This document shows, one piece after another, positions 1,721 to 51,569 of a DNA stretch of 64,000 nt (its first letter is position 1; the number at the start of each line of letters is the position of its first letter). A program made the translations under genes and the position numbers. This DNA comes from Nitrosovibrio sp. Nv4 (GTDB lineage Bacteria; Pseudomonadota; Gammaproteobacteria; Burkholderiales; Nitrosomonadaceae): positions 1,240,001 to 1,304,000 of the forward strand of contig NZ_OCMZ01000002.1 in the NCBI RefSeq assembly GCF_900215485.1, read 5' to 3'. The notes beneath the pieces are model-generated. The model searched no databases, was not told the origin of the DNA, and saw only the letters and a program-made list of their open reading frames with translations.

Positions 1721-1803
1721 TCAGGCGAAAAACGCGCCCCATGGTTACGGTTACGAAATTGATTCAAAAAGAATAACAGCATGAGCATGTTCATCGGACG
1801 CGT

Positions 1804-5493: not shown

Positions 5494-5986
5494 AGTTGGA
5501 AATTAATGGTCAACCTGCTTGCTTCCGGATATGACCTTGACGCATGCAGCGACCGTTAACTGCTAATAATGCCACGTAACGACGAATAACATTTTCCACC
5601 GTCACTTGTTTCCAATCGCTTGGGCGGTTTTCTATTGTCCGCTTCGGACCCTTCAACTCTTTTAAGGTCCAAAGTTGCCTGCTAATCCCAGAGCTACCCA
5701 ACCGGTCCAGTATATAAGGATAGAGTTATAACAAAATAATAAAAACTTTATCATGGCACATCCATCGAATAACCATTATTCTCGTCTTTCTCTTTTAGGT
5801 CTGTGCGTCATGCCTCATAAATTTGAATGTCCCTTTCCTGCCTCGAATAGATAAAATCGAGCCATGTCCAACAATCTGCCTGCCGCGAATCGGTGATCCG
5901 GTGGGCAACGGGCGATTCGGAACTTCTGGCGTTCAACGTGAGGCCCACAGGCGAAATTCGGGTTGGATGACTGGAGAGATAAAACC
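5494..5986. other. Intergenic region between divergent putA and the toroid-protein gene
   Basis: About 490 bases, AT-rich in the middle (around 5710-5760). It must hold the promoters of the two divergent genes. A 63-codon minus-strand frame (5510-5701) has no homology-like features and no ribosome binding site, so I leave it out. I see no clear repeat or terminator. Confidence 0.4.
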
Positions 5987-7048: not shown

Positions 7049-7347
7049 CATTCCTGATGTTTCACGTGAGGATTTTAGTTTGGCTTGTCATGATATGATC
7101 GGCCAAGCTTGGTCTGTTACCCCAGCCAAATCCGTTTCCTCGCCTTTTGATCAGATTAGACTCCGCTTATGAGATTTATAATCAGGAAATACTTGAGGTG
7201 CCCACATCTTGAACAGTTAGAAGCCATACGCTGATTCTATCGGTTATAGGTAAATGTCCAACGCTACCATCCAGGTTTGCGCACATTTACAAACCCTCCC
7301 GAAGAAACTCCGATAATAACTTTCCTTACCCTTAGATTTTGTAACAC

Positions 7348-38810: not shown

Positions 38811-40208
38811 TTATCGCCTCTTTATCCGGACTGGAATTCCACCTTTGGGCCGCAGGGTTACCGCCATTTCAATCTCGGCTTCCTCAGCCTTAAGCAACTG
38901 TAAATCATAGTGCTGAACTATCATGCTTATCAATAGCTGGCTTTCCAGTAATGCAAAATGACTGCCGATACAGATGCGTTCGCCTGTCCCGAATGGCATA
39001 AATGAAAACCTGCGATTTTCGGGTATTAAAAACCGTTCAGGGTCGAATTTCTCCGGTTGCGGCCAAAAATCAGGATGATGATGAAGATTGAAAATGCTGA
39101 ATATCGCTAGCCTGCCGGCCTTTAAAAAAAAACCGTCAACCTCGGTATCCTTGTTGACTTTACGCAGAATAATGCCAGCCGGTGGACGAAAACGCATCGA
39201 TTCATTCAGTACGGCTCTTGTATAAACAAGCTGCTGCAAATCTTCGGCATCCGGTATTTTTCCTTGCAGCAGGCCGTCAAGCTCCTGGCGCAGTTTGGCG
39301 AGTACATCTGGATGCCGGGCCAGTAAATATAAAGTCCAGCTCAACAAATTCGCGGTGGTTTCATGGCCTGCACCAAAAATGGTAATGACTTCATCACGAA
39401 TCTGTTTGTCAGTCATTTTTTCGCCGCCGTTGTCATCGCTTGCTTTTAACAACATATCCAATAAATCGTTGTGCACAGATGATGTAGTGCGGCGTTGATC
39501 GATGATTCCGTAAATGACACCATCGATTATTCCCAGCGCCTGTTTGAATTTTTGATTGGCCGGGGTGGGTACATACAACGGAAGCGTCAAAGGACTCACG
39601 ATGGTTTTAGCGGCATACCTGAGCAAGGTATCCAAAGATGGAGATATCTGTTCTATTTTGTCGAGGACGCTGGTGCTGAACATGGTCTGGGTGATTCCCT
39701 CCAGCGTCAGCTGCATCATTTCCTGAGACAGGCTAACCTCCGCACGTTCACCTAATTTCCGCCATCTATCCAGCATATTGCTGCCAGCAGTGGCGATTTG
39801 TGGCAACAGCGTAGTTATATTGCTTCTCTGAAAAACCGGCTGCATCAACCGCCGTTGCCTTTGCCATAAATCACCCTGGCTTGTTACTAATCCCTGTCCC
39901 AACACCAACGCCAGGCCGGTCGGTTTTCCGGCATCGTGGATTTTTACAAAAACATCGCTTTGCTTGATCAGGGCTTGTTCAAACAGCTTCGGATGACCGA
40001 ATAGATAAAACTGGCGGCTAGCCAATCTAAAGCTGACCAGGCCACCGTAATCTCGCTGCCAGTCACAAAGGGCTTGAAACGGATTCGCACTCATCTGGCT
40101 TAGATTGCCCAGCAGAAAACTGCCTTTGACCTGTGGAATTGCTTTGTTAGGCGTCATGTCAATGCAGGTAGAAGTTTCAATGACGGCTTTCATTCTCGCT
40201 GCGCTCAT
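38811..40208 (-). CDS. Cytochrome P450
   Basis: About 465 aa, soluble. The oxygen-binding helix has FGAGHETTANLLSW, the ExxR motif is in LNESMRFRPP, and the haem loop is FMPFGTGERICIGSHFALLE with the proximal cysteine. The open frame extends to 40271, but the extra residues (GQLGKVGKEQAFHGPERKK) come from a decayed IS3-type orfA, so I place the start at MSAARM (40208) or MKAVIE (40193). The substrate is unknown; fusion of transposase and P450 frames suggests the native upstream region was replaced by the insertion sequence. Confidence 0.9.
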   Translation of the reverse strand: MSAARMKAVIETSTCIDMTPNKAIPQVKGSFLLGNLSQMSANPFQALCDWQRDYGGLVSFRLASRQFYLFGHPKLFEQALIKQSDVFVKIHDAGKPTGLALVLGQGLVTSQGDLWQRQRRLMQPVFQRSNITTLLPQIATAGSNMLDRWRKLGERAEVSLSQEMMQLTLEGITQTMFSTSVLDKIEQISPSLDTLLRYAAKTIVSPLTLPLYVPTPANQKFKQALGIIDGVIYGIIDQRRTTSSVHNDLLDMLLKASDDNGGEKMTDKQIRDEVITIFGAGHETTANLLSWTLYLLARHPDVLAKLRQELDGLLQGKIPDAEDLQQLVYTRAVLNESMRFRPPAGIILRKVNKDTEVDGFFLKAGRLAIFSIFNLHHHPDFWPQPEKFDPERFLIPENRRFSFMPFGTGERICIGSHFALLESQLLISMIVQHYDLQLLKAEEAEIEMAVTLRPKGGIPVRIKRR

Positions 40209-40430
40209 CTTCTTGCGTTCGGGACCATGAAAGGCTTGTTCTTTGCCAACTTTGCCAAGTTGCCCTGCCATTTATATAACTGGTTGCGGGCGATCCCCAG
40301 TTCCAAAGCAAGCTCAGCGGCAGTTTCTGTCCAAGCTCCAAAAGCCTGATCGCTTCCAGTTTGAACTCCTTGCCGAATCACTCTCGCTTGTGCTCATGAT
40401 TCTGCTTGCCATTGCTCTTCTTTATTTGAC
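40209..40430 (-). pseudogene. IS3-family orfA remnant, frameshifted
   Basis: On the minus strand, KEFKLEAIRLLELGQK, a frameshift, AAELALELGIARNQLYKWQG, then a second frameshift, LGKVGKEQAFHGPERKK. This is the helix-turn-helix OrfA of an IS3-group element. No OrfB remains. The last frame is continuous with the P450 frame, so annotation software may fuse the two. The 24-base repeat at 40462-40485 lies just outside and may be the element's end. Confidence 0.75.
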
Positions 40431-40461
40431 ACCTCCGTCACATTGTCTAGCTTCCAATGTG

Positions 40462-40485
40462 TCCGGAAAAGCCGGGTTAGCTCAG
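40462..40485. repeat. 24-base repeat shared with 11661-11684
   Basis: Identical to the segment at 11661-11684 (starts TCCGGAAAAGCCGGG). It adjoins the IS3-type remnant and so is probably an insertion-sequence end. Confidence 0.6.
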
Positions 40486-40529
40486 TCTGACCCCCTTTTT
40501 TCCTGCCGCTCTCCCATCCAAAAAGTCCC

Positions 40530-41474
40530 TCATGAATGAGTTGAAATCATTGCAAAACCACCCCAATTCACCAATGACGAGACATAGTTTCTGACTGGGC
40601 CCGCGGGGACAATCTCGTCAAGCCTCTTTTGAGTCAGAATTGGCCCAAAACCTGAAAGCAACATGTCTATATTTGTGCGGTTAATGTGTCCGATCACAGC
40701 ATCGGCCAGCAACATAGCTTCCGGTGTCTGAAACTGACTCAAGTCTTCGCTAAATTTTTCGCCCCATTGGCTGTGGGTTAAAGCATTTTCCACCTCAAGC
40801 AATGGCCTCACTTGCCAATTGAACGCCTTTGTTACTGTCATTTCCTTCGAGAAACGATCGTATATTTGATCAAGATTTTCAACGCCAATATGTCCGTCAA
40901 TATAAACGTACCTTCTAATTGGGTCTTTCTCGTCTTTTGGATTACAGTTTAAGTAATTAATATCCCCGCACTCTATTCCGTGAAAACCACTGCCGCCGGA
41001 AATGGTCACCCTATTGATTTCGGATATCAGCCCGTCTTTATTGCGAAACTCCACGTGCCCAAATGTATCCATGGAAAATACAAAATCAAATGAATCATCG
41101 GGAAAAGGGAGTCCTTGGATGAAGTCGCATTGAATGGCCATATCATAGCCATTTTCTAAACTTTCTTCGGTGCAAGCTTTGCTCATATCAACGCCAGTGA
41201 GACGGCAGTTTGGGAATACGCTTTTAATGTAAGCACCGAATCGCCCCGAGCCGCAGCCAATGTCGAGTACAGAAAATCCAGGAGCCTGACTGTGTAGAAC
41301 TCCGGCAATTTCCTCAGCAAGAAATTCAAACTTTTGAAAGCCTATTGCCCGCCTGCAGATAGGTCGAAGCGCCATGGGTTCAAATTTTCCACCGCCACTT
41401 GAAAAGCGGGTCGAATAAAAGGAAACCGGATCGATCTCAAAAAGATCGTAAGTAATATCAATTAGAGTTTTCAT
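40530..41474 (-). CDS. SAM-dependent class I methyltransferase
   Basis: A 314-aa protein. Residues about 60-170 form a Methyltransf_11 Rossmann fold: VLDIGCGSGRFGAYIKSVFP (motif I), LTGVDMSK (motif II), FIQGLPFPDDSFDFVFSMDTFGHVE (motifs III-IV). The N-terminal 60 and C-terminal 130 residues have no recognised domain. The target is unknown. The gene is AT-rich compared with the core genes and lies between IS debris and the integrative element, so it may be an acquired gene. Confidence 0.8.
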   Translation of the reverse strand: MKTLIDITYDLFEIDPVSFYSTRFSSGGGKFEPMALRPICRRAIGFQKFEFLAEEIAGVLHSQAPGFSVLDIGCGSGRFGAYIKSVFPNCRLTGVDMSKACTEESLENGYDMAIQCDFIQGLPFPDDSFDFVFSMDTFGHVEFRNKDGLISEINRVTISGGSGFHGIECGDINYLNCNPKDEKDPIRRYVYIDGHIGVENLDQIYDRFSKEMTVTKAFNWQVRPLLEVENALTHSQWGEKFSEDLSQFQTPEAMLLADAVIGHINRTNIDMLLSGFGPILTQKRLDEIVPAGPVRNYVSSLVNWGGFAMISTHS

Positions 41475-41914
41475 GTATTAAAACGCGCCGAGCTAATGAT
41501 TTCTGAATATTAAAAATGCGCAAAATTGCAATGGCCTCTATGGAAAACCAGCTGAAGACTTTTCAAAATCGGTGGGCACAGTAAGCAAGCTGCCCTTAAT
41601 ATCAAAACGCTGTCTGCTGGTTGCCATTTGATGAAATGGCAACTTAAACACGTAGTTCCGCGACTCCAGTGCTCGGATCTCGGCCTTGGACGCCGCCGCG
41701 CGGCGGCAGGGCTGCAACGCTGGCCGCAGCCGGCGTTGCGCTATGAGTTACGCCAGCGGGGAATGCCGGCAGGCCTTTACCGGAATTGTTAAACATGTGT
41801 TAAAGGGGCCGTTTTGTTCCCGGCGCAGGATGCCACTGAATTCGCCTTGAATGTGGTCAGCTAGAGTGTTTTTAGTGATCTGCATAACGCTTGAACCACA
41901 CTGGGCTGCTGTAT

Positions 41915-41927
41915 TGGCGGGGCGGTG
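41915..41927. other. Putative attL core (degenerate tRNA-Ser 3' end)
   Basis: TGGCGGGGCGGTG matches the tRNA-Ser 3' end sequence TGGCGGAGGCGGTG at 51480-51493 except for one missing base, in the same orientation. It lies 63 bases outside arm-type sites that match those next to the integrase. This is where the left end of the element is expected. Confidence 0.6.
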
Positions 41928-41989
41928 TCATTCACATTAAGCCTTGAAAGCCTTTCCATCACTCATTCTCTACATCACTTAAATATTAG

Positions 41990-42009
41990 TTACCACGTTT
42001 GTTACCACG
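41990..42009. other. Left arm-type sites (2 x TTACCACG)
   Basis: TTACCACG at 41990-41997 and 42002-42009, offset 12 bases. The same pair with the same 12-base offset occurs at 51346-51365 next to the integrase start. Paired arm sites at both ends are characteristic of tyrosine-recombinase att regions. Confidence 0.7.
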
Positions 42010-42044
42010 AATAGCGCGTCGATACCTCTTGTTGCAGACAGGCA

Positions 42045-42070
42045 AGGCCGACCTTAATAAGAGTCGGCCT
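42045..42070. terminator. Hairpin, possible terminator at left element end
   Basis: AGGCCGAC / GTCGGCCT with a 10-base loop. There is no long T-run, so terminator function is uncertain. It may insulate the element from chromosomal transcription. Confidence 0.4.
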
Positions 42071-42278
42071 GCTATCATTCATTGCCATCAGGCAGGCTTC
42101 ACGCTGGAGAAAGGTAGCAGGAATTTTTCTTACCGTTGAGGCAGTATAGTAGCAGGAAAAATTTCCCGCTACTTCTCCAAGTACAACAGGCGCCCTTTTT
42201 CAAGAAATCCGAGTGTGCCAATACAACCTCTCCGGCTGGCTGACTGTTGATGAATTCAACCAGTTCAAGTTGGTCAAT

Positions 42279-42521
42279 TTACTCGTCGCGCCCCTCTTTC
42301 CGTAAAATTTCTTCTAAAAGGCGGATATCGATTTCATCCATTCGCAACAGGCCGGGGCCTTCGTGATGGTGAGCCGATTCGTGGTGGTCCAGGTATTCGG
42401 TGAGCGCCAGGCTTGCCAGCTCGTTGAGCGATAAGCGGTTACGTTTCAGGTATACGTCCGTACGAGCCCTGATGTGCTTCGGTAGCCGGATGGTGGTTGT
42501 CTGATTTTTTTTGGCTACCAT
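42279..42521 (-). CDS. Ribbon-helix-helix (CopG-like) protein
   Basis: An 80-aa protein with TTTIRLPKHIRARTDVYLKR followed by LSLNELASLALTEYLD, the strand-helix-helix pattern of CopG/Arc-like DNA-binding proteins. A histidine-rich linker (HHESAHHHEG) is unusual and may bind metal. It is the leftmost gene of the integrative element and is transcribed outward. No toxin partner is adjacent, so a regulator is likelier than an antitoxin. Confidence 0.75.
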   Translation of the reverse strand: MVAKKNQTTTIRLPKHIRARTDVYLKRNRLSLNELASLALTEYLDHHESAHHHEGPGLLRMDEIDIRLLEEILRKEGRDE

Positions 42522-42671
42522 AAATTATTGTAACAATTTCTTGTTATGGACTAAGCACGCGGATCCTTCCCTGATCACGCACAGACATCTGTTACGTTTT
42601 ATAACTGTTTGTTTTACGGCTTGATTTAACGAAGATCAGGCATTAATCTACACGTAACATCGGGGTGATTG

Positions 42672-42788
42672 ATGGAAAAGAATTGATCAGAACTTGAAGC
42701 TAAAGACTTGGCGGAGGCCAACATGCTGCACAACCAACAAAAGCTCCTGTACAACGCGCCTAATAGTGCTGTCAGGGCAGTCAACTGA
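42672..42788 (+). pseudogene. Truncated 3' end of a phage-like gene coupled to the cupin gene
   Basis: In one frame the bases encode MEKN, a TGA stop, then SELEAKDLAEANMLHNQQ and KLLYNAPNSAVRAVN with a stop at 42786-42788. That stop overlaps the cupin start codon (TGATG). The composition and tight coupling look like the tail of a real upstream gene whose 5' part is missing or separated by the in-frame stop. An internal ATG (42723) could give a 21-residue leader peptide. Confidence 0.45.
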
Positions 42789-43123
42789 TGATTAAACACT
42801 ATTTCAGCGATGGGATATACGCTAAGCAGATGCGCATTGGCGCCGGTCAGTACATTGTGTCGCACAAACACAAGTACAGCCACATGAGCATTCTGGTGAG
42901 TGGCGAAGTTATGGTCAAGATTGACGGTAAAGAGGCTAGGTATGAGGCTCCTGCCTGCATAGAGATAGGCGCGGAACAGCATCATATGATCACGGCCATA
43001 AAGGACTCTGTCTGGTTCTGTATTCACGCAACAGCGGAAACAGATGTCGATCGAATTGATGAAACATTGATTTCAAATCCAGATATGAACGCTGTAGTTC
43101 AGCTTGTGACAGGAGGAAAATAA
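42788..43123 (+). CDS. Cupin-fold protein, phage-module type
   Basis: A 111-aa protein with the cupin pattern G-x-x-x-x-x-H-K-H-x-Y-x-H (YIVSHKHKYSHMSILVSGEVMVKIDG) followed by the second motif EIGAEQHHMITA. Small cupins like this are often encoded among phage head/tail genes. Its start overlaps the preceding stop by one base and its own stop overlaps the next start by one base (TAATG), so the three genes are translationally coupled. Ligand and role are unknown. Confidence 0.75.
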   Translation: MIKHYFSDGIYAKQMRIGAGQYIVSHKHKYSHMSILVSGEVMVKIDGKEARYEAPACIEIGAEQHHMITAIKDSVWFCIHATAETDVDRIDETLISNPDMNAVVQLVTGGK

Positions 43124-43824
43124 TGCCAGCGATATCACCGTGGCTAGTTGCCGCCGCCGTAGCATCTGCGCTTGCATCTGCCGGCGGCACGGTAGCGCAA
43201 ATGAGCGCCCAGAGCAGTATCCGGAATAAGCAAAAAACTGCACAAAATGCAGAGGCCGCCCGCCAGCGTGACATTGACCGGCGGCGCGATGCCGAGATGC
43301 AAAAGGTCTTGCCAAAGCATGAAGTTGAGTCTCAGCAAGAGAAACAACAAGGGATAGCTGACGAGTTGTACAAGTACATGACGCCAACGGTGGACACATC
43401 AACTGAATACATGGCTGACAACACGAATGCACCGCAAATAATCAAGGACACGATGCAACAGCAGCTTGTGGGCGCACTGCAGAAGGGGAAGAACTACGCG
43501 CGGAACTTGTCGCAAGTGTCGTCACTTGGCCGCCTCAATCTTGACAATAAACTCGGAATGAATCGCCTGGGCGAGCGTGTCGGCATGCTTAACAATGAGT
43601 CGGCACGGTCAAGCGGAATTCTGCCTCTGGAGTTGGACGACGCGAACCTTGCGGGCGTTGGAGCCAAGAATGCTGCGGGCGTCTTGAATGGTGTCGGTGG
43701 CATCGCTGACGCCATTGGACAGTATCAGATTTTGGATAAAGGAGGGATAAAGAATGCCCTCGGGCTAGGAGCAAAGCCGGCTGCGAAAGGATCTCCATTG
43801 CCGCTCAATTCAACCGTCGCCTAG
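43123..43824 (+). CDS. Phage internal-virion/ejection-like protein
   Basis: A 233-aa protein. An alanine/serine-rich hydrophobic N-terminus (LVAAAVASALASAGG) precedes a charged helical region rich in Gln, Arg and Glu (residues about 35-90), then glycine-rich helices and a C-terminal amphipathic segment. This layout resembles podovirus internal-virion or DNA-ejection proteins such as T7 gp14-type proteins, but similarity is of composition rather than motif. It overlaps the cupin gene by one base and precedes a lipoprotein gene by 11 bases. Confidence 0.5.
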   Translation: MPAISPWLVAAAVASALASAGGTVAQMSAQSSIRNKQKTAQNAEAARQRDIDRRRDAEMQKVLPKHEVESQQEKQQGIADELYKYMTPTVDTSTEYMADNTNAPQIIKDTMQQQLVGALQKGKNYARNLSQVSSLGRLNLDNKLGMNRLGERVGMLNNESARSSGILPLELDDANLAGVGAKNAAGVLNGVGGIADAIGQYQILDKGGIKNALGLGAKPAAKGSPLPLNSTVA

Positions 43825-43835
43825 CGGGAGCGAGC

Positions 43836-44180
43836 ATGTCGTCATATCCAAATCCATACGGTCCTGCTACCCGAATAGGGGTCGGGCTTTTTGTTCTCTT
43901 GCTTATAACTAGCTGTGCCGCCCCTATTACAGAGGAAGGGATGCAGGTACGCGAGATACAGCATGTAGTGACGGAAAGTTGCAAGTTTGTCGGGATGGTA
44001 GAGGCCGAAGGCGTAATCTTTTATTCCAGCAAACCCGAGGCCAAGCGGGACATGCTGAATAAGGTTCGCAACGAAACAGCGAGACTGGGTGGAAACGCTT
44101 ACGCGATTACTACCATAGAAATCGAGCGCGGATTCAGCCTGCCTTATGCGCAGGCAGACGCCTATATCTGCGCTGCTTGA
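43836..44180 (+). CDS. DUF4156-like lipoprotein
   Basis: A 114-aa protein with a hydrophobic segment and lipobox (GLFVLLLITSCAAP, Cys near residue 27). The mature part has CKFVGMVEAEG, an RDMLNKVRNETARLGGNAY helix and AYICAA at the end, which match DUF4156 lipoproteins. It would be an envelope-anchored protein made from the phage-like operon of the element. Whether it affects superinfection or surface receptors is open. Confidence 0.8.
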   Translation: MSSYPNPYGPATRIGVGLFVLLLITSCAAPITEEGMQVREIQHVVTESCKFVGMVEAEGVIFYSSKPEAKRDMLNKVRNETARLGGNAYAITTIEIERGFSLPYAQADAYICAA

Positions 44181-44243
44181 TGCCCAGGAGTATGGCAAGA
44201 GGATTTAAATCGATTGTAGAGCCTCGTGGAGAGGCCCTTGAGC

Positions 44244-44399
44244 ATGTGGAAGGTCCGCTCCGCGCCAGGTGCTGCTTCCAAAAAGGAAGGCGACCCGCAT
44301 ACGTCCGAAACGTTCGGAGCGCGACCAGATGAAAGCGTAGCAGAATTCCAGCCCTCGGATGAGAGGCAATTAAGCGGTGACCTCTTCAACTATCGATGA
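44244..44399 (+). CDS. Small protein of unknown function
   Basis: A 51-aa frame, MWKVRSAPGAASKKEG...GDLFNYR, with GGAGAGG nine bases before the ATG. Its composition is protein-like (GARPDESVAEFQPSDERQL) while the other frames are not. It continues the plus-strand cupin/virion-like/lipoprotein series after 63 bases. After it, frames at 44396 and 44405 are possible but less convincing, so the block may be decaying here. Confidence 0.45.
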   Translation: MWKVRSAPGAASKKEGDPHTSETFGARPDESVAEFQPSDERQLSGDLFNYR

Positions 44400-44584
44400 A
44401 GCAATGCGATTTCCTTCGATGGAGAGCGGCTCAGCAATCGGGGCGTCCTTCCCCTCAGTTAAGTACGGAACCGACCGGCAAGCGTCATGGGTTGATAGAG
44501 CACTTCCCCCACCCCGCCACCCCCGGCGCACGCGCGCTCACCTCCATTGAGGTCCCTCTCCAAAAATTTTGGATTTTCAGCGTT
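44400..44584. other. Short region with ambiguous coding potential
   Basis: A frame from 44405 encodes MRFPSMESGSAIGASFPSVK and continues to a stop near 44550; an overlapping frame starts at 44396 (ATGA with the previous stop). Neither can be preferred. A C-rich, proline-coding stretch at 44505-44540 hints at loss of coding function. Confidence 0.3.
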
Positions 44585-45073
44585 TCACCGGGGTATATTT
44601 AGGATGGATTTCACTATGGCACTCGACCGCGTCGGGTCCTGATGGCTAAGTCTCATGGCTTCTAGCCAGCTCGTAAACTCTTCCTGAGTCATCCCTGAGG
44701 AACGGATAAGCCGAGATAAGTCATCAAGCGTTTTTGCTTTTTCCCGAAGCGCGGTATTTTCTTTGGTAAGCTCAGTGAGCTGATTGTATAGGTCAGTTCT
44801 GCTATTTGATTCATCCGTTGAGCGTCGGATATCGCGCATTCTCTGTTGATATATTGCCGCCGTGGCAATTTCCCGACTCTCTATCGCGTAATTCTCCATA
44901 ACCTCAAGCCGATTCTGTGGGTTTAAGTTGTAGTGGGGAATGCGTGGCTGCCACGGCTGAGCGTTTCGCTCCATCTGTTCTGCGTTGATGCTGGTAAAGT
45001 CAGCTTGTGATTGTCCGCTTGCCAGCATTACCACTGCAACGAATGCTATCCTGAGTTTGAGCATGACCATCAC
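44585..45073 (-). CDS. Exported protein of unknown function
   Basis: A 162-aa protein with a signal peptide (LKLRIAFVAVVMLASGQSQA) and a mature helical part including RTDLYNQLTELTKENTALREKAKTLDDL, a likely coiled coil, then GMTQEEFTSWLEAM. AGGAGTGAT-type sequence precedes the ATG. A periplasmic protein is likely. It is convergent with the plus-strand phage-like block. No family is recognised. Confidence 0.6.
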   Translation of the reverse strand: MMVMLKLRIAFVAVVMLASGQSQADFTSINAEQMERNAQPWQPRIPHYNLNPQNRLEVMENYAIESREIATAAIYQQRMRDIRRSTDESNSRTDLYNQLTELTKENTALREKAKTLDDLSRLIRSSGMTQEEFTSWLEAMRLSHQDPTRSSAIVKSILNIPR

Positions 45074-45198
45074 TCCTTTGGTTATTGGTTATTGGGGGAT
45101 GCGTAGCCGGTCACTGCAACAATACAGCCGAATGTGCGGACGATCAAACCATAATAATCGTTCAGGCAAGTTAACCGGACGCGTGATCGCCTCTCGTT

Positions 45199-45582
45199 TC
45201 AGTGCAGCGTCCTTCTTTTCTTGCTGCTGGCAAACCCGCCAGCTTGCCCCTGAATCCGGACTTTCATGCAGCCATCCATGAGCAGCAGCTGCTCGACGAT
45301 ATCAAGCGCCGGGATAGGCGCATCATCCAAGCGCCGGGAAACTCGCTTAGGCCCGATCGACACGTCCCCGCGCTCTTTGCGTTCGCGCCGGCATCGCTGC
45401 GGCTGTTCCCCCTCATACAGTTTCAGCAGCTTCGGCGATAGCTTTACCTGCTCGCCCGTATCCGCATAGGTTAGATCAACACGTGCGCAATCATCGCGGC
45501 GCGACTCTTCCCAATATCTGTTTACCTTGGCAATGTGGCCAGATGGTGTTACTACCAGGTCACCGTTTTTGAAGTCGCTCAT
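45199..45582 (-). CDS. Small element-encoded protein with SH3-like N-terminus
   Basis: About 127 aa from the ATG at 45582. The N-terminus DFKNGDLVVTPSGHIAKVNR, then ARVDLTYADTGEQVKLSPKLLKLY, resembles a small SH3-like beta-barrel as in KOW-type or phage single-domain proteins. The C-terminal half is basic (RRERKERGD, SKKRRTLH) and could bind nucleic acid. Function unknown. Confidence 0.55.
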   Translation of the reverse strand: MSDFKNGDLVVTPSGHIAKVNRYWEESRRDDCARVDLTYADTGEQVKLSPKLLKLYEGEQPQRCRRERKERGDVSIGPKRVSRRLDDAPIPALDIVEQLLLMDGCMKVRIQGQAGGFASSKKRRTLH

Positions 45583-45647
45583 GATGCCTTCCAGCTCATG
45601 GTATCGTGACAATATTGAAGCGCTACAGCGCGCATCGGAGGAAGAAC

Positions 45648-45824
45648 TTGCCTACATCGAAAACTCCAGCACTCGACAAGTTGACGCCAGAAAAACGGAA
45701 GAAGGTTCTCGACCTGGCGGCGAAGATGACGGTGCTGAACCACATCAAGAAGCTGGTGGACGATATGCGAGCCGAGGCGATGAACTCGAATTCCAGCTCG
45801 AGCGACACCGGGAAGGAACCATAG
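45648..45824 (+). CDS. Small helical protein with TTG start, opposite strand
   Basis: A 58-aa frame starts at TTG 45648, preceded by GGAGGAAG six bases upstream. It encodes PTSKTPALDKLTPEKRKKVLDLAAK, then VLNHIKKLVDDMRAEAM and a serine-rich tail. The strong ribosome binding site supports this start over the ATG at 45606. It lies on the strand opposite its neighbours and converges with the zinc-ribbon gene (two-base gap). Function unknown. Confidence 0.55.
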   Translation: MPTSKTPALDKLTPEKRKKVLDLAAKMTVLNHIKKLVDDMRAEAMNSNSSSSDTGKEP

Positions 45825-45825
45825 C

Positions 45826-46374
45826 CTACCGAGCCCGCTTGGTAACTGGCTGGACCTCATACAATCTCCTCAGCCGCTCGGTCATCTTTTCGTCATGCTC
45901 AAGGCGACCCTCGATAGTCGCAAGGAACTGATCAGTTAGCCGTCTCCAAGTGGGCCAGCGCATCCATAACGGCTTTCCTTCCGGCTGGCTTGAGTCTTCA
46001 CTACCTCGGCGCTCATAAGCTCGTTTAAAGCGGCGGAATGCACGCTCGGACTCCCCTTCATTCTCAACAGGATGAGCCAAGTTCAGGCATTTCTTGCACC
46101 CATACTGATCCGAAGGCATCTCCCCCTTTGGGAAGCGGTAAAGGATGCAACAGCGCCCCAGGCAGCGTGGGCAGCGAAAATAGACGCGGTAACCGCCCAG
46201 GTGGCATGGCCTCCATTCCAGATCCACCGTTACACTGCCAGCAAGGATAAAGGCCTCACTGTTCGGGCGAAGACGATATTCACGGGACAGCTTCCGCACG
46301 TCCACCGAGCAGAAGTCATCGGTAAAAGCCTTGTCTCCGCGGCGCCAAAAACTTCGGATATCTAATTCATCCAT
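45826..46374 (-). CDS. Zinc-ribbon protein of the integrative element
   Basis: About 182 aa from MDELDIRSFWRRGDK (46374). A beta-rich N-terminal half with SVDVRKLSREYRLRPNSE and a four-cysteine zinc ribbon (YFRCPRCLGRCCILYRF... YGCKKCLNLAH) precede a basic helical C-terminus. Such proteins occur in phages and islands next to replication genes; the exact role is unknown. Its upstream region is the TGGGGA array, and its frame extends through part of it to 46512, but that extension is not protein-like. Confidence 0.6.
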   Translation of the reverse strand: MDELDIRSFWRRGDKAFTDDFCSVDVRKLSREYRLRPNSEAFILAGSVTVDLEWRPCHLGGYRVYFRCPRCLGRCCILYRFPKGEMPSDQYGCKKCLNLAHPVENEGESERAFRRFKRAYERRGSEDSSQPEGKPLWMRWPTWRRLTDQFLATIEGRLEHDEKMTERLRRLYEVQPVTKRAR

Positions 46375-46510
46375 GACAATGACTGAAAGAAAACAAGTTC
46401 GACCAAAGTTAGAAAAAATTATTGGGAAATGTTGCCCATGGTTCGAATCATACTTTATCAACTCATCACACCGAAACGCATCAGCTTCCCCATTCCCCAA
46501 ACCCATTCCC

Positions 46511-46530
46511 ATCCCCCCTAAAGGGGGGAT
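46511..46530. repeat. Perfect inverted repeat next to TGGGGA array
   Basis: ATCCCCCC / GGGGGGAT with a TAAA loop, at the left edge of the array. The C-rich side continues to about 46480 with several TCCCCA boxes, the inverse of the array unit. It could act as a replication hairpin or an operator. Confidence 0.75.
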
Positions 46531-46695
46531 TGGGGAAGATTGGGGACTAAATTGGGGAAAATGGGGACTTTGGGGACGTTTTGGGGACTTTTTTGGGGAC
46601 GTTTTGGGGACTCAAAATTTCAGTTTGGGGACATTTTGGGGAAAATGGGGCTTTTTGCCTATTTTTTAATCAGTAGATTGGGGACGTTTTGGGGA
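46531..46695 (+). repeat. Iteron-like array of TGGGGA boxes with ~11-bp phasing
   Basis: TGGGGA begins at 46531, 46541, 46553, 46562, 46571, 46582, 46594, 46605, 46626, 46637, 46679 and 46690, with a variant at 46646. Most neighbours are 9-12 bases apart and the larger gaps are 21 and 33, so the boxes face roughly one side of the helix. The consensus is TTTTGGGGACGT. The array lies directly downstream of the RepA-like gene, where plasmid-type iterons are found. The repeated GGGG tracts could also form G-quadruplexes. Confidence 0.8.
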
Positions 46696-46726
46696 CTATT
46701 CAAGAGTTCTTGATACCATTGTCATG

Positions 46727-47968
46727 CTATCGAATCCATATCCAGCCTTCTCGCAGTATCAGGCAACCGGCATTTACCAATCCTGTCACAGCAATCCTTA
46801 CCCGTTCCGGCACTCGATCATTTTCAACAGCCAGGCGACCACGGCAGGCCTCGATTAATTCATCCACGCGAGTACAAGGACGCCCGTTAGGCGCGCCACC
46901 CTTAGCAAAATCATTTGATGCCCGAAGCAGTTCGCCGGCCACGTCATATACCACTTTCTGATTTCCGCCCTTAGGGAGCTTCACGCGTCGTACAGAATCA
47001 GCGGTGCGTTCTTCTGGAGTGATGATGCACGAGGTTATCGGATCCCCGTCGGTATCCGTGCCCAACTCCACAGATGAAAGCCGGAATGCATGTTCTTCCC
47101 CGTCAACTCCGTCTTTTGATTTCGCCAGCCGCCAGGACCGCCGGTCATCCTCACGCCTTACTTCGATCACCGCATCACTGGCGGCGAGCAGGCTACTATG
47201 CCCTCGCATGCCCCTGGATGCGTCTTTTCCACTGTGATGGATAGGAATAACAACGCAATCGCACTCCTCCCCGATACGATGGAGAGTGTCTACAATTCTT
47301 CCCATATCTGGACTCGAATTTTCATCCGCCCCGGCTGCCGCAGCGCTCAAAGTGTCAATCATGATGATACCCGGGCAGTAGTTATCAGAGTGAAGATTAT
47401 TCACCTTTTCAATAAAGACTTCGACATCATGCGGGCTGAAAAGCGAGAAGGAGCCTTTAACAAACTGTACGGTCGGCTCAATAGCCTCATCCCGATAGTA
47501 TTCATAATAAGCTCGGACACGCTGTGCTAGACCGCCTTGACCCTCCAGGCATAAATAAACCGCATCACGCTGTAAAGTTCGGTGGCCATAAAATGGCCTG
47601 CCTTCCGAAATGGCAAAGGCCAGTTCAAGCGCCAGAAAAGATTTTCCACTGCTGGGCGGCCCGAAGATAGGGACCAGCCCATTTTGCGGAAGGATGCGTT
47701 TTACCAAATATTGCGCGGGTGGCATCGCTAGCAGATCCGCTGCCGTTTGAAATTCGAGGCGTTCAGGCTCCCGCCCCGTGATCGAATCTTGCTGGCTGTG
47801 CCATTTGACGCGCTTTCCGTTGACAACGAGTCTCGGCATCTCGATTAATTCCAGATCAGCGCAGCCCTCAAGGCCTCGGGGTATGTAATCCGCAATACAT
47901 TTTTTCTGCTCAACTTCGCTCAGCTTGCGCCATTCCTGGGATGATATTACTTTGCCTGCCGCATTCAT
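46727..47968 (-). CDS. RepA-like hexameric helicase / RecA-fold ATPase
   Basis: A protein of about 413 aa. The RecA-like core has Walker A PIFGPPSSGKSFLALELAFA near residue 106, VYLCLEGQGGLAQRVRAY, Walker B GIIMIDTLSAAAAGADEN and the arginine-finger region VVIPIHHSGKDASRGMRGHSS. This matches AAA_25 replication helicases related to RSF1010 RepA. The C-terminal 120 aa may be a winged helix. The start MNAAGK overlaps the preceding stop as ATGA. It is probably the replication protein of the integrative element and the TGGGGA array its origin. Confidence 0.82.
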   Translation of the reverse strand: MNAAGKVISSQEWRKLSEVEQKKCIADYIPRGLEGCADLELIEMPRLVVNGKRVKWHSQQDSITGREPERLEFQTAADLLAMPPAQYLVKRILPQNGLVPIFGPPSSGKSFLALELAFAISEGRPFYGHRTLQRDAVYLCLEGQGGLAQRVRAYYEYYRDEAIEPTVQFVKGSFSLFSPHDVEVFIEKVNNLHSDNYCPGIIMIDTLSAAAAGADENSSPDMGRIVDTLHRIGEECDCVVIPIHHSGKDASRGMRGHSSLLAASDAVIEVRREDDRRSWRLAKSKDGVDGEEHAFRLSSVELGTDTDGDPITSCIITPEERTADSVRRVKLPKGGNQKVVYDVAGELLRASNDFAKGGAPNGRPCTRVDELIEACRGRLAVENDRVPERVRIAVTGLVNAGCLILREGWIWIR

Positions 47969-48210
47969 TTGAGGGCTCTCCTCTGGCAATCTTGGCTTCT
48001 CTTCCACCAGTCTTCCACCTGTTCAGTCTTAGCAGCCTTGAGCGCTCGGGCTGCCGCTGGATCTCGGCGCTTGAGTAAGTAGTATTCCCATAACTCGGTG
48101 CCAGACCACGTTTCACCCCCACCCGCGTACATCTTCTCGGCGTTTCTCGGCGCGGGATTTCCGGATGGCAGAGCAGTGGAATGTATGGGAAATGTTCCCG
48201 CCGCACTCAT
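47965..48210 (-). CDS. Small protein of unknown function between AlpA-like and RepA-like genes
   Basis: An 81-aa protein, with WSGTELWEYYLLKRRDPAAARALKAAKTEQVEDWWKR as a likely helical C-terminal half. It overlaps both neighbours by four bases (ATGA), so AlpA-like, this protein and RepA-like are one translationally coupled unit. An accessory replication role is plausible but unproven. Confidence 0.6.
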   Translation of the reverse strand: MSAAGTFPIHSTALPSGNPAPRNAEKMYAGGGETWSGTELWEYYLLKRRDPAAARALKAAKTEQVEDWWKRSQDCQRRALK

Positions 48211-48443
48211 TGCAAGGTCTCACTGGATGCGTGACGCTTGACGGTCTCGCGGATATCTTCCACTCGCCACGCCGTCACGCGCTTGCCAAGAGTGCGCACG
48301 GGTTGCGGGAAACGGCCTGACTTCACTCCGTCCCACCAACAGGTTTTTTTTACGGGAATTATCGGGGGAATCGGCGGTTCCGCTTTGGGATCACCGATAA
48401 TTTGGTACAAACGAAGAAACCCGGTTTCGGGGAGTTTATGCAT
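48207..48443 (-). CDS. AlpA-like helix-turn-helix regulator
   Basis: A 78-aa protein: FLRLYQIIGD, then SVKKTCWWDGVKSGRFPQPVRTLGKRVTAWRVEDI-like text typical of AlpA/excisionase HTH_17 proteins (TCWWDGVKSGRFPQPVRTLG, RVTAWRVEDI). AlpA proteins activate integrase or replication genes of P4-like elements. Its stop overlaps the next start by four bases, placing it at the head of the replication operon. Confidence 0.85.
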   Translation of the reverse strand: MHKLPETGFLRLYQIIGDPKAEPPIPPIIPVKKTCWWDGVKSGRFPQPVRTLGKRVTAWRVEDIRETVKRHASSETLQ

Positions 48444-48565
48444 TTCGGTCGCCTCTTGTAAGTTACAGACGTCGAAATCCTATTGTGTCCGTTGATGTCC
48501 GTCACGACAGGAATTGGTCGCAATTAATGTCGCGCTTGAGGGCTATCTATAGGGAACCGCTGGGG

Positions 48566-49147
48566 TTACTGCTGTTTCTTTTTGTCGCGATACTTTTCAT
48601 CCAGTATTCTTTCGATTGCTACCATAGCGCCATATTTCTTGTAAGCACGCTCCACAGTTTTTATATCTACGAACTCATCGATATCCGTAAGAACTTTGTC
48701 TTTGGCTTCTTTGAGAGTAAGGGTATTGTCGTTAACAATGTAACGGTCGACCTGTTTGGCAAGGTCTTTATTACCTTCCTCTGTTTCCTTCGACTTGCGG
48801 CGACCCGTCTTTTTTCGGGGAATGCCGAAGGCTGCCAGCATCGCTTTTTTGTTTTGCAATAGGTGTTTTATCGGACTGATGAGAGATGCCAGCGCAATGC
48901 CGACAAGCCGCGTTTCTGTGTCAATTTTGATTTCTTCGCTGAGGCGCTCAGCGAATTTGAGTAGAGCGATCATTTCATCGGCGTCACCGCCTTCCGCATC
49001 AGATTTCATTTGCCGCACGCGGGCTCGGATACTCATTACTGGAATATTCAGCGGATCATCTGTATCCCCGCCTACCATTTCCGCGTCTATCATTTCCATA
49101 TCTTTAACCGGAAAATCCTCAGGCGAAGGTTCTTTATCGTCATCCAT
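48566..49147 (-). CDS. Element-encoded protein of unknown function
   Basis: About 193 aa from MDDDKEP (49147), which overlaps the Xis-like stop by eight bases. Acidic N-terminus, then a helical middle (RVRQMKSDAEGGDADEMIALLKFAERL, KHLLQNKKAML) and a basic C-terminal segment rich in lysine (PRKKTGRRKSKETEE, EKYRDKKKQQ). It looks like a nucleic-acid-associated regulatory protein, but no domain is recognised. Confidence 0.55.
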   Translation of the reverse strand: MDDDKEPSPEDFPVKDMEMIDAEMVGGDTDDPLNIPVMSIRARVRQMKSDAEGGDADEMIALLKFAERLSEEIKIDTETRLVGIALASLISPIKHLLQNKKAMLAAFGIPRKKTGRRKSKETEEGNKDLAKQVDRYIVNDNTLTLKEAKDKVLTDIDEFVDIKTVERAYKKYGAMVAIERILDEKYRDKKKQQ

Positions 49148-49475
49148 TTTTTGGCTTCCTGGCAGTTGGTGCCCCGATAGGTAAAGGCGCGCTATTGCTC
49201 TTGGGGCTCGTCCCTTGCTGGCCGATAGGTAGAGGTGATCCTGTACGAACTGATTGGCGTTCCCTCGATTCCTTTTCGCCATCTACTTTCTTGTTCACCA
49301 TCCCTGTTTCTACCCAGTCACGATATCCCTCAATGCTGATTAAAATGCGTCCGTCAGGTGCTTTTCGCCATACACGGTTTTGAAGCCATGCCCCACGCTT
49401 GATTTTGGTGCGAACTGCGTCCTCCGTATACCCAGTGAGCTCACAGAACTTCCAAATTTGCACGTAACCAGTCAT
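49140..49475 (-). CDS. Excisionase-like protein
   Basis: A 111-aa protein. The N-terminal half YVQIWKFCELTGYTEDAVRTKIKRG, then VWRKAPDGRILISIEGYRDWVE, matches the excisionase family found beside lambdoid and P4-like integrases. The C-terminal tail is low in complexity (SPLPIGQQGT..., APLPIGAPTA; the motif PLPIG is repeated). It overlaps the next gene by eight bases. It would steer the integrase towards excision. Confidence 0.8.
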   Translation of the reverse strand: MTGYVQIWKFCELTGYTEDAVRTKIKRGAWLQNRVWRKAPDGRILISIEGYRDWVETGMVNKKVDGEKESRERQSVRTGSPLPIGQQGTSPKSNSAPLPIGAPTARKPKNG

Positions 49476-49509
49476 GTTCTAGAATTTCCTTCCTGTTTGA
49501 GGCGCACTA

Positions 49510-49530
49510 AAAAGGGGCCGAAGCCCCTTC
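49510..49530 (-). terminator. Rho-independent terminator after the DUF3560-like gene
   Basis: On the minus strand AAGGGGC-TTCG-GCCCCTT followed by TTT. It ends the gene at 49541-49804 and separates it from the Xis operon. Confidence 0.8.
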
Positions 49531-49540
49531 CTGCCAGGCA

Positions 49541-49804
49541 CTAGGCCATCCGTTCATCTCCTATCTTTCCGCATAACTTGATCAAAAGCTCGATCGCGGA
49601 TCGCTTAATTGGAGCCACAAACACATAATGCTTGCTGTCCCATCTGAACCCGGCTTCCATCAAGCGGTTAAAAAGATTCTCGCTAACGTCTAGGTCGGGG
49701 GCAGGCGTAAAAAAACGCAGCTTTCTGTCAGCGGGGGAATATGTTGCTTCGAGGTAAACGGAATCTATTTCTGATGACACGGACGTGCCGGCGGATTTAG
49801 GCAT
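49541..49804 (-). CDS. DUF3560-N-terminus-like small protein
   Basis: An 87-aa protein from MPKSAG at 49804, with AAGGAG six bases upstream. SVYLEATYSPADRKLRFFTP, then LMEAGFRWDSKHYVFVAPIKRSA, resembles the N-terminal part of DUF3560 proteins found on plasmids and islands (AGFRW-x-x-K-x-x-FVAP). Only that part is present and the ends are clean, so it is a stand-alone version rather than a broken one. The frame upstream to 49930 has no support. Confidence 0.65.
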   Translation of the reverse strand: MPKSAGTSVSSEIDSVYLEATYSPADRKLRFFTPAPDLDVSENLFNRLMEAGFRWDSKHYVFVAPIKRSAIELLIKLCGKIGDERMA

Positions 49805-49962
49805 GGTATTTCTCCTTGTTAAGTTATTTAAGTTTTTCCGCCTCCCACTGTCAAATGGGTGGGCGGACACGTGCGGGTTGACAGACCGGAACAAGGACCG
49901 GCAGGGATCTCTCCCTCCCACACGAGCCACCCGTAAAGCGCATGTTCATGTTTAACGGGCGT

Positions 49963-49986
49963 AAAAAAACCGCTTGATGGCGGTTG
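49963..49986 (-). terminator. Rho-independent terminator of the integrase gene
   Basis: On the minus strand AACCGC-CATCAA-GCGGTT followed by a T-run, about 90 bases after the integrase stop. Confidence 0.8.
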
Positions 49987-50074
49987 TCCGCCTTGTTTCC
50001 CGAGCTGTCAAACCCGGCCCCTGAATTTGCAGAGGTAAGAACAGTATTGCTCCTATAAATAGGATTGTCAACAA

Positions 50075-51301
50075 CTACGCAACCTTGCCATGCAGCGGCA
50101 ATACGTTCGCACCGTGGGCCAATCCGTCCAGGTAATCCGCCCAATGCTGCATCATTCGCTTACGCTCGGGCAGATACTCCGCCCGATTATAGGCGCCTCT
50201 CACCTCGTTGCGTTCGCAGTGGGCTAGCTGGCGCTCGATCACGTCAGGATTAAAGCCGGTTTCATTAAGAATGGTCGATGCTACCGCCCTGAATCCATGT
50301 CCAGTCATCTTGCCCTTGTAGCCCAAGCGGTACAGGGCAAATAGCATTGTGTTATTGCTGATGGGCTTGTCGCGGTTACGCCCGGGGAATACGAAGCGGC
50401 TGCCGCTAGATATCTCCTTGAGTTCCGCCAGCATTGGGAGCGCCTGCTTTGATAGGGGGACGATATGCTCGGCTTTCATCTTCATGCGCTCGGCAGGGAT
50501 AACCCACAAGGCATTGTCCAGATCGAACTCTACCCACTCCGCGCCTATAAGTTCATTGGTGCGCACGAACGTTTGCGCCAGCAACTGAAGGGCAAGGCGG
50601 GTTTGCTTGTCGCCGATTTCGTCATAGCCAGCAATCGCTCTTAACAGTTCCGGCAATTCCTCGGAACGAACCGCGGATTGATGCTGTTTCTTGTGAGGGG
50701 TCAGTGCACCGCGTAAATCGGTTGAAAGGTTACGGGAGCAGCGCCCGGTAGCAATGCCATAGCGGAATACCTGTCCGCATACCTGCAAGACACGGTGGGC
50801 AAGATCATATGCGCCGCGTGCCTCTATCTTTCGTATAGCCTGGAGCAGTTCTGGCGCCTCAATCTCGCCGACGGGACGCTTGCCCAAGGTAGGGAAGATA
50901 TTGCTCTCCAGACGGCGCTTTACATCGCTGGCATGATGAGACACCCAAGTATGCACTTGCTTACCGTACCACTCGCGAGCCACAGCTTCAAAGGAGTTTT
51001 CCGCCGCCAACTTTTTCCGCAGGTTTGCGGCCTTGCGCTCGGCGGAAGGGTCAAGATCCGCTTGCAGTTGCTGGCGTAGCTCATCGCGCTTTTTCCGCGC
51101 ATCGCTCAAACTTACTTTGGGGTATACACCCAAGGAGAGGGATTTCTCCTTACTTGCCTGCCAGTAGCGCATCCTCCAGTACTTACGACCGTCCTGGTAA
51201 ACCCATAGGTAAAGGCCGTCGCCATCGTGCAACTTACGGATGCCCGCGCCATTGCTGGTGGCATTCTTGCACTCTGCAGCGGATAACAAATTGGTAGCCA
51301 T
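50075..51301 (-). CDS. int: P4-type tyrosine integrase
   Basis: A 408-aa recombinase complete with the DUF4102 N-terminal arm-binding domain (GIRKLHDGDGLYLWVYQDGRKYWRMRY), the SAM-like core-binding region and the catalytic domain: Arg in FVRTNELIGAEW, HGFRAVASTILNETGF and Tyr371 in RGAYNRAEYLPERKRMM. It is transcribed away from tRNA-Ser, whose 3' end it presumably uses. Paired arm sites lie directly upstream of its start. The same C-terminal motifs are left in the remnant at 19100. Confidence 0.95.
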   Translation of the reverse strand: MATNLLSAAECKNATSNGAGIRKLHDGDGLYLWVYQDGRKYWRMRYWQASKEKSLSLGVYPKVSLSDARKKRDELRQQLQADLDPSAERKAANLRKKLAAENSFEAVAREWYGKQVHTWVSHHASDVKRRLESNIFPTLGKRPVGEIEAPELLQAIRKIEARGAYDLAHRVLQVCGQVFRYGIATGRCSRNLSTDLRGALTPHKKQHQSAVRSEELPELLRAIAGYDEIGDKQTRLALQLLAQTFVRTNELIGAEWVEFDLDNALWVIPAERMKMKAEHIVPLSKQALPMLAELKEISSGSRFVFPGRNRDKPISNNTMLFALYRLGYKGKMTGHGFRAVASTILNETGFNPDVIERQLAHCERNEVRGAYNRAEYLPERKRMMQHWADYLDGLAHGANVLPLHGKVA

Positions 51302-51365
51302 CGTGGTAATTCCTCATCGTGGTAATATTTCATGTGATAAGTTTGTTACCACGTAAATTACCACG
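51302..51365. other. Right arm-type sites next to int
   Basis: CGTGGTAA at 51302-51309 and 51318-51325, and the inverse TTACCACG at 51346-51353 and 51358-51365. The second pair matches the left-end pair (41990) in sequence, orientation and 12-base offset. They overlap the int promoter region, so integrase binding may also repress int. Confidence 0.75.
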
Positions 51366-51479
51366 GTTTCAGCTCGGACTCAAGCGGATGTTACCGGACT
51401 GTTGCGGACTATAAAGCGGGGAAAGGCTACTGAAATTCAGGTACTTATGAACGTTGGCGGATGGGTTCGGATGTCATTC

Positions 51480-51569
51480 TGGCGGAGGCGGTGAGATTCG
51501 AACTCACGGTAGAGTTGCCCCTACGGCAGTTTTCAAGACTGCTGCCTTAAACCGCTCGGCCACGCCTCC
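51480..51569 (-). tRNA. tRNA-Ser (UGA)
   Basis: The minus strand folds as GGAGGCG acceptor, a D-arm, anticodon loop CTTGAAA with TGA, a long variable arm (type II), T-arm GTGAGTTCGAATCTCAC and CGCCTCC-G-CCA. The 90-base length with CCA encoded fits serine tRNA. Its 3' end (51480-51493) is the attR core of the integrative element. Confidence 0.97.

Follow-up and report, generated by a model that had tools for sequence, protein, structure and literature searches.

A probable phage satellite carrying a cupin gene and a putative ejection-type gene in the tRNA-Ser gene of an ammonia-oxidising bacterium

The phage satellites known so far alter packaging or the size of capsids, or build capsids of their own. 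Here we describe an integrative element of ~9.57 kb (positions 41915-51480) in the 3′ end of a tRNA-Ser(TGA) gene of Nitrosovibrio sp. Nv4, lying in a 64,000-nucleotide (nt) stretch of its 3.27-Mb genome (G000:C2:1240001-1304000; hereafter the window); the Nitrosospira/Nitrosovibrio-type genus consists of ammonia-oxidising betaproteobacteria. Among the closest described systems, Gram-negative phage-inducible chromosomal islands (PICIs) likewise have int at one end at a specific site, an AlpA-like regulator (a weak match in our element), a replication gene and a length of ~10 kb, and section 6 of PMC6092414 places their origin directly 3′ of the replication gene, with two iteron sets around an AT-rich stretch, an arrangement that recurs here; unlike them, the element has no recognised terminase small subunit (TerS) or capsid-redirecting gene, and its end opposite int holds a cupin gene and ejection-type genes on the other strand. 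P4-like satellites share with it an AlpA/Vis-like protein and a C4/isrK (CI/seqA-type) RNA locus, whereas no psu, sid or delta family was found in it; its Rep is of the AAA_25 RepA type with helicase/primase PHROG matches and might be related to P4 alpha. The Vibrio minimalist islands (PICMI) are similarly small, with int, alpA-like and replication genes and no capsid-remodelling genes, but our element sits at tRNA-Ser rather than beside fis, has more genes, including phage virion-type ones, and encodes an AAA_25 Rep where the PICMI model primase is DUF3987/DUF5906. Satellites that encode virion proteins themselves have precedents in the cf-PICIs (PMC10803314) and the Streptomyces Mulch/Flayer satellites (PMC10690885), which carry capsid or encapsidation machinery, whereas only ejection-type genes are present here. 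Since the attachment and origin features of PICIs and the RNA locus of P4 occur together and the packaging genes of neither are recognised, we regard the element as a variant of PICI/P4-grade satellites and file it in neither group.

The account that we favour, and consider rather probable, is that of a phage satellite in tRNA-Ser that is packaged by a podophage and whose cupin-ejecA block modifies ejection by the helper, the mechanism being a proposal; ejecA denotes the 233-amino-acid (aa) protein encoded directly after the cupin. Three things can be read directly from the sequence, namely the bounded element, the RNA families and the iterons. We strongly infer that the element is a satellite, and more weakly that a podophage is its helper and that ejecA works in the virion.

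The first-pass annotation had described a compact insertion of about 9.6 kb at tRNA-Ser with both ends resolved, and comparison of the right flank together with the integrase arm sites bears this out. In the genus set (23 genomes including G000; G018, G020, G008 and G021 are other members), a right-flank query, in which the tRNA edge is query base 181, matched 23 of 23 genomes. In the 21 relatives other than G018 the best match begins no earlier than query base 167 (window 51466), and that of G018 runs across into the element at 97% identity; the sequence directly beyond the tRNA varies among the relatives compared. An empty left junction was not found in the genus, because the left flank beyond a P450 gene matched over its whole length only in G018. 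The arm motif TTACCACG occurs seven times in the window (0.99 expected), with six copies at the ends of the element, where paired copies had been reported. The spaced pair TTACCACG-N4-TTACCACG was found 19 times in 10 of the 23 genomes (reversed-pattern control, 0) and is not widespread in the own genome, which has four: two bound the element, and the other two, at C2:1400196 and 1433337, are 33 kb from each other. A GGTGTCCTTCACATT-like motif lies ~65 bp outside the pair in 14 of the 19 copies, the other five being the int-side copies (by eye). The reported left core, TGGCGGGGCGGTG, is indeed present at 41915, but it aligns to the tRNA end only via a one-base gap and is weak alone: 0.23 matches with one mismatch are expected by chance, and 20 of 100 shuffles had at least one. 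The arm sites thus decide the ends and, with them, the length.

Satellite character is suggested by the gene order (Table 1). On the minus strand, inward from the tRNA, follow the integrase, the RNA locus, a 129-aa open reading frame (ORF), the excisionase (Xis), a 238-aa protein, an AlpA-like protein, a small protein and Rep, and past Rep the iterons, a CxxC-pair protein and small ORFs. The integrase, Xis and RepA-like genes named in the first-pass annotation are backed by profiles (the best named PHROG for Rep is the helicase/primase-type phrog_906, 1e-36), and its AlpA gene has a weak match below the cut-off and relatives in other elements. Just past the rep stop, the two iteron sets flank a stretch of 67% A+T over 36 bases; over the whole window, both strands counted, TTGGGGA occurs 20 times. 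The array recurs in G018, and at this place G020 has another repeat, five copies of TTCGGGAAA. From its sequence and position, the array is a probable replication origin. Between the integrase and the 129-aa ORF lie the C4 and isrK RNAs, whose Rfam profiles, according to a passage of PMC10111431, detect the CI and seqA relatives of P4 and match several Gram-negative PICIs. At the gathering threshold both RNAs were also found in G018 and C4 in G021 (locus L043), and neither in L038, L039, L040, L041, L042, L044, L045 or L046. As first claimed, none of the 15 element proteins scanned against Pfam and PHROG belongs to a capsid, portal, terminase or conjugation (relaxase) family, nor did the scan find lysis, psu, delta or sid families. 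The satellite layout proposed at first, PICI or P4-like, is thus supported by C4 and isrK, by iterons 3′ of rep and by related elements at two different sites.

One of these, in G018, is the same element at the same tRNA; it is ~12.1 kb long, with main blocks 91-96% identical and the ejecA block 80%, and its middle, an accessory slot, matches the PADLOC defence models RmrA (3.2e-154) and RmrT (1.6e-55). The other is a relative at the transfer-messenger RNA (tmRNA) gene of G020, delimited by an exact 70-bp attachment (att) repeat with copies 10,969 bp apart, whose proteins are 53% (Rep), 52% (CxxC protein), 56% (AlpA-like), 35% (238-aa protein) and 53% (Int) identical to those of the window. 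Just inside its end opposite int it carries ejecA, followed by a 395-aa protein that we call ejecB.

The cupin is mainly a phage gene: relatives were found in 136 stretches of viral contigs (up to 63% identity) and in 48 of 50,697 phage records (all below 60%), compared with a single one of the 125 family genomes and three of the 369 class genomes, two of these three at 28-31%. In 75 of the 80 viral loci kept from the 136 stretches, an ORF has its start between -11 and +2 nt of the cupin stop (the five without a downstream gene are L095, with no cupin ORF, L136 and L143, with the cupin off the contig end, and L078 and L151, with no next ORF). Five of these 75 ORFs are cut by the contig end (L088, L108, L115, L126, L153), and, judged by a simple threshold, the N-terminus is hydrophobic in 69 of the 70 complete ones, as it is in ejecA. 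The cupin-downstream gene belongs to 'DNA ejection' PHROGs in Amaethon, VPMS1, P26218 and contig L133, and in Amaethon the gene preceding the cupin is also in an ejection family; in L137 the downstream gene has no PHROG. The element resembles the podophage-type ejection cassette of VPMS1, Amaethon, P26218, MW202898 and Mae-Yong1326-1, in which a small gene (cupin or acetyltransferase) precedes an ejection-type gene and a gene for a larger protein, but those phages have terminase, portal, capsid and, in some, a giant downstream protein, and the element has none of them.

Translational coupling was at first assigned to a whole cupin/virion-like/lipoprotein block. The cupin and ejecA genes overlap by one base (TAATG); the lipoprotein gene lies close by, 11 bases on, without overlap. 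Searches found ejecA in three of the 125 family genomes and in one of the 369 class genomes, the window's own. Every family copy lies inside such an element, so that no relative was seen to keep it without one. Pairwise dN/dS (nonsynonymous to synonymous substitution rates) was 0.150, 0.142 and 0.151, with a dS of 0.51 for the close pair; dS exceeds 2 for the remaining two, whose ratios are rough. A dN/dS near 0.15 and this confinement to such elements argue for a working element gene rather than debris, although an unseen phage lineage may account for some of the selection. On its position directly after the cupin, its hydrophobic N-terminus and its mostly helical architecture (an all-helical AlphaFold model from three sequences, of low confidence at mean pLDDT 51), rather than on significant homology, this protein, labelled 'virion-like' at first, is most likely of the ejection or internal-virion type.

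The best two matches of an ejecA hidden Markov model among 5,376 phage ORFs of at least 60 residues, at E 0.14 and 0.16, are neighbouring Mae-Yong1326-1 genes upstream of an ejecB-like gene, and pairwise scores against one of them beat 300, 300 and 299 of 300 letter shuffles for the three copies. Against a 162-aa protein of the resident prophage (see below), 1, 5 and 8 of 300 shuffles did equally well, and against L174, 29, 31 and 136. When ORFs were ranked by the three copies jointly (2,341 ORFs, 1,162 after a similarity filter, 22 of them ejection-slot ORFs as labelled by the analyst from the cupin-downstream survey and annotated phages), ejection-slot genes took 11 of the top 15 places, a number reached by 0 of 30 control queries; 30 fully shuffled queries gave 3-9, as did 30 in which the N-terminus was left intact. 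Among named PHROGs the best match was to 'internal virion protein' 418, by the G018 copy at a non-significant E of 0.11.

The identity of ejecB is better anchored than that of ejecA. Its last 34 residues are 68% identical to a Mae-Yong1326-1 protein encoded in the slot that precedes the giant gene. This tail also closes two viral-contig proteins, one of 632 aa in the corresponding slot of L156, after acetyltransferase-like and 228-aa genes (by eye), and one of 563 aa in L157, portal-like by eye. No match to the whole of ejecB was confirmed in viral contigs, where only the end part matched these two. Mae-Yong1326-1 is reported to have a long flexible tail (PMC9503304), so that it is not a typical podophage; its protein P0001, considered as a bridge, had no further relatives. 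In the window the place of ejecB after ejecA is taken by the lipoprotein gene, whose start, MSSYPNPYGPATRIGVGL, resembles that of ejecB, MPSYPNPYAYTNANIGAGL, by eye, so that the lipoprotein has probably displaced all of ejecB but its first codons; in G018 the lipoprotein gene has a disrupted start.

A candidate helper lies in the same genome. A search for phrog_332, a portal family of podophages, found it in two of the 125 family genomes and, within the genus, in one of 23, the window's own, where a T7-like podoprophage extends from C3 position 1726191 to beyond 1762714 (L168, L169), with integrase, large terminase, portal, tail and tail fibre genes by PHROG and lysis-type genes by eye. It encodes in sequence an acetyltransferase-like protein, the 162-aa internal virion protein (phrog_418, 1.9e-25), and proteins of 510 and 1,238 aa, an order that recurs in MW202898 and is a suggestive parallel to cupin-ejecA(-ejecB). 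Relatives of the 162-aa protein were found in two viral contigs and one phage record; one of the contigs (UViG_2721756095_000001, 40,083 bp, IMG/VR) contains the gene at 100% identity and probably represents this very prophage. The use of the prophage as helper, the packaging and the function that we ascribe to the element are inferred.

Several results weigh against the podophage-packaged satellite with a working ejection block. No ejecA homologue was found in the 50,697 phage records by tblastn, none was confirmed in viral contigs, and hhalign against phage ejection families was not significant. Ranking with the window's ejecA alone put 8 ejection-slot genes in the top 15, inside the shuffled range, and composition explains much of the ranking signal, order adding a little. 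The cupin is absent from G018 and G020, and in L099, which represents the largest viral cluster, it comes after the large terminase gene and is itself followed by a gene without a PHROG. C4 and isrK were not found in G020, even when the 3.7 kb on the int side of L038 were searched at E 0.1, and the scan of the 15 element proteins turned up neither a TerS nor a capsid-size gene. Both G018 and G020 carry ejecA, yet no portal gene of the podophage family was found in either. Comparison of element and prophage DNA gave 10 short matches (best E 0.09), not clearly above a control stretch (5, best 0.32), which we take as no shared DNA.

A rival account is that of an ordinary integrative island in which cupin, ejecA and lipoprotein are anti-phage cargo, a decoy ejection protein and a surface lipoprotein directed against podophages, moved by other means such as generalised transduction. 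Other islands, for example the 33-kb one, use integrases of this family and the same arm sites, the G018 accessory slot holds RmrA/RmrT, the lipoprotein adjoins ejecA, and ejecA, whose virion role is putative, is under purifying selection; however, the C4/isrK switch and the rep-iteron module suit a replicating satellite better than a passive island, and ejecB of G020 retains a phage virion-type tail. We therefore consider the island rather unlikely.

An improbable account is that of a usual PICI-type satellite whose packaging gene went unrecognised (the 238-aa protein, for example), with ejecA membrane-associated but unrelated and the cupin picked up by chance. The lack of significant homology between ejecA and ejection families fits it, as do the TerS-carrying loci in the genus, but a cupin followed by an N-terminally hydrophobic protein mirrors the podophage order, and ejecB follows ejecA in G020. 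The 238-aa protein was itself considered as a terminase small subunit and dropped, having no Pfam or PHROG support.

Distinctly improbable, finally, is a decayed podoprophage, or an island with prophage debris, in which cupin and ejecA are virion-gene leftovers, for although such decay would agree with the cupin missing from two relatives, with ejecB replaced by a lipoprotein whose gene start is itself disrupted in G018, and with the lack of any other head or tail gene found in the element, ejecA is intact in three elements at dN/dS 0.14-0.15 and in the same place at two different sites, and DNA common with the resident prophage does not stand clearly above the control.

Table 1. Features of the element and its attachment site (window positions; E-values unless bits are given)
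Feature	Position	Strand	Basis
Left attachment core TGGCGGGGCGGTG	41915..41927	+	Weak alone; supported by arm sites
Left integrase arm-site pair	41990..42009	+	Motif and spaced-pair counts
80-aa small DNA-binding (Arc/CopG-like) protein	42279..42521	-	Weak PHROG, best 3.9e-4; Arc-like repressor 8.2e-4
Cupin, podophage 'short tail fiber' kind	42788..43123	+	Pfam 1.4e-6; phrog_12032 6.4e-20
ejecA, putative 233-aa ejection-type protein	43123..43824	+	Position and architecture; no significant homology to phage families
DUF4156 lipoprotein	43836..44180	+	DUF4156 6.8e-7; first residues resemble ejecB of G020 (by eye)
Noncoding stretch common to G018 and two TerS-carrying G008 loci	44255..44322	+	~70 bp, sequence search
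Coiled-coil-like (by eye) protein	44585..45073	-	Weak tape-measure match, TMP_3 0.018, below cut-off
Protein without assigned function	45199..45612	-	Kept in G018 and G020 elements
72-aa ORF	45606..45824	+	Kept in G018
CxxC-pair protein, zinc-ribbon-like by eye	45826..46512	-	Kept in G018 and G020
Iteron array, probable replication origin	46530..46695	+	11 × TTGGGGA, sets of 9 and 2
Rep, AAA_25 RepA-type ATPase	46727..48007	-	AAA_25 3.5e-33; helicase/primase PHROGs
81-aa protein	47965..48210	-	98% identical in G018
AlpA-like protein	48207..48443	-	Pfam AlpA 0.019, below cut-off; relatives in several other elements
238-aa protein	48566..49282	-	No Pfam/PHROG family; relatives in G018, G020
Excisionase (Xis)	49140..49475	-	phrog_9668 1.8e-18
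129-aa ORF	49541..49930	-	Start overlaps C4 RNA
C4 antisense RNA (RF01695)	49855..49938	-	55.9 bits, gathering 45
isrK RNA (RF01394)	49963..50036	-	54.2 bits, gathering 50
Possible C4 target c4-a1b1 (RF03163)	49997..50049	-	40.7 bits, below gathering 46.7
Tyrosine integrase with Arm-DNA-bind_3	50075..51301	-	phrog_1 1.8e-60; three Pfam integrase domains
Two inverted arm-type sites upstream of int	51302..51325	-	Arm-motif search
Right integrase arm-site pair	51346..51365	+	Motif and spaced-pair counts
tRNA-Ser(TGA), 3′ end = integration site	51480..51569	-	tRNA prediction, right-flank comparison, Rfam

Among the remaining features, the 129-aa ORF may have its real start further inside, as its annotated one overlaps the C4 RNA, and a PADLOC scan of six window proteins for defence functions gave one weak match (REase_II, 8.4e-4). 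The noncoding stretch at 44255-44322 is possibly a packaging or replication site: elsewhere in the 23 genomes it was found only in G018 and at both TerS-carrying loci of G008 (L162, L163, L164), one further, shorter G008 match falling in another part of the query, and none was found in plasmids or phages. As a structured RNA it was rejected, with a fold z of -1.0, 28 of 200 shuffles as good and no Rfam match. The two G008 loci encode TerS (PF03592, 3.5e-32 and 3.3e-34) at L045 10502-11098 and L046 4988-5557, the former beside an integrase at tmRNA, where no attachment repeat of 16 exact bases was found; the window integrase found no match in L046. Beside the TerS gene of L045, at 1756-7101, lies one for a DEAD-box protein of 1,781 aa that has an MrfA Zn-binding domain.

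In G021, the C4 antisense RNA (L043 8595-8680) lies near sequence like the left part of the element and possibly marks another relative. Outside the G020 element (L038 2484-3638) there is a second, partial copy of the att repeat (46-bp match), and between it and the element lie two small genes, toxin-antitoxin-like by eye, so that a tandem remnant is possible; a tRNA-Gln(CTG) called by ARAGORN on the opposite strand within ejecB (L038 5074-5164) is probably spurious. The distance from the P450 gene to tRNA-Ser (window 38811-51480) varies widely in the genus, as at an insertion hotspot, and the two distant arm pairs of the own genome probably enclose a 33-kb island at tRNA-Ser(CGA) (C2:1400196-1433337; L044, L074), whose integrase is 86% identical in protein to that of the element.

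If the element is a podophage-packaged satellite, its cycle might run as follows. In the integrated state the C4 RNA would pair with the leader of the int-proximal operon and stop transcription early, which is the mode of action of P4 CI RNA. Infection or induction of a podophage would relieve this block, AlpA/Xis and Int would excise the circle, Rep would fire the iterons, and the satellite DNA would be packaged in particles of the short-tailed helper. The cupin-ejecA block may be the satellite's version of part of the helper's ejection apparatus, with products that enter the helper virion or compete for it, so that DNA delivery would be biased to the satellite or the helper's own would be spoiled. 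The lipoprotein that takes the place of ejecB in the window would plausibly act in superinfection exclusion. A more specific version, a satellite family of ammonia oxidisers that supplies its own ejection (pilot) proteins to a short-tailed helper virion, with the resident T7-like podoprophage as that helper, we put forward as a tentative and rather doubtful possibility.

Searches of an open-access library that paired satellites with ejection or internal virion proteins or with podoviruses showed, among the titles and abstract openings listed, no satellite acting at DNA delivery. If our account is true, a satellite with ejection proteins would act at that step, and the element would offer a small natural system for asking which ejection proteins determine the DNA that a podophage particle delivers. 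With element and candidate helper in one genome, the idea is directly testable. The locus also points to satellites controlled by P4-type RNA in ammonia-oxidising betaproteobacteria, bacteria of relevance to the nitrogen cycle.

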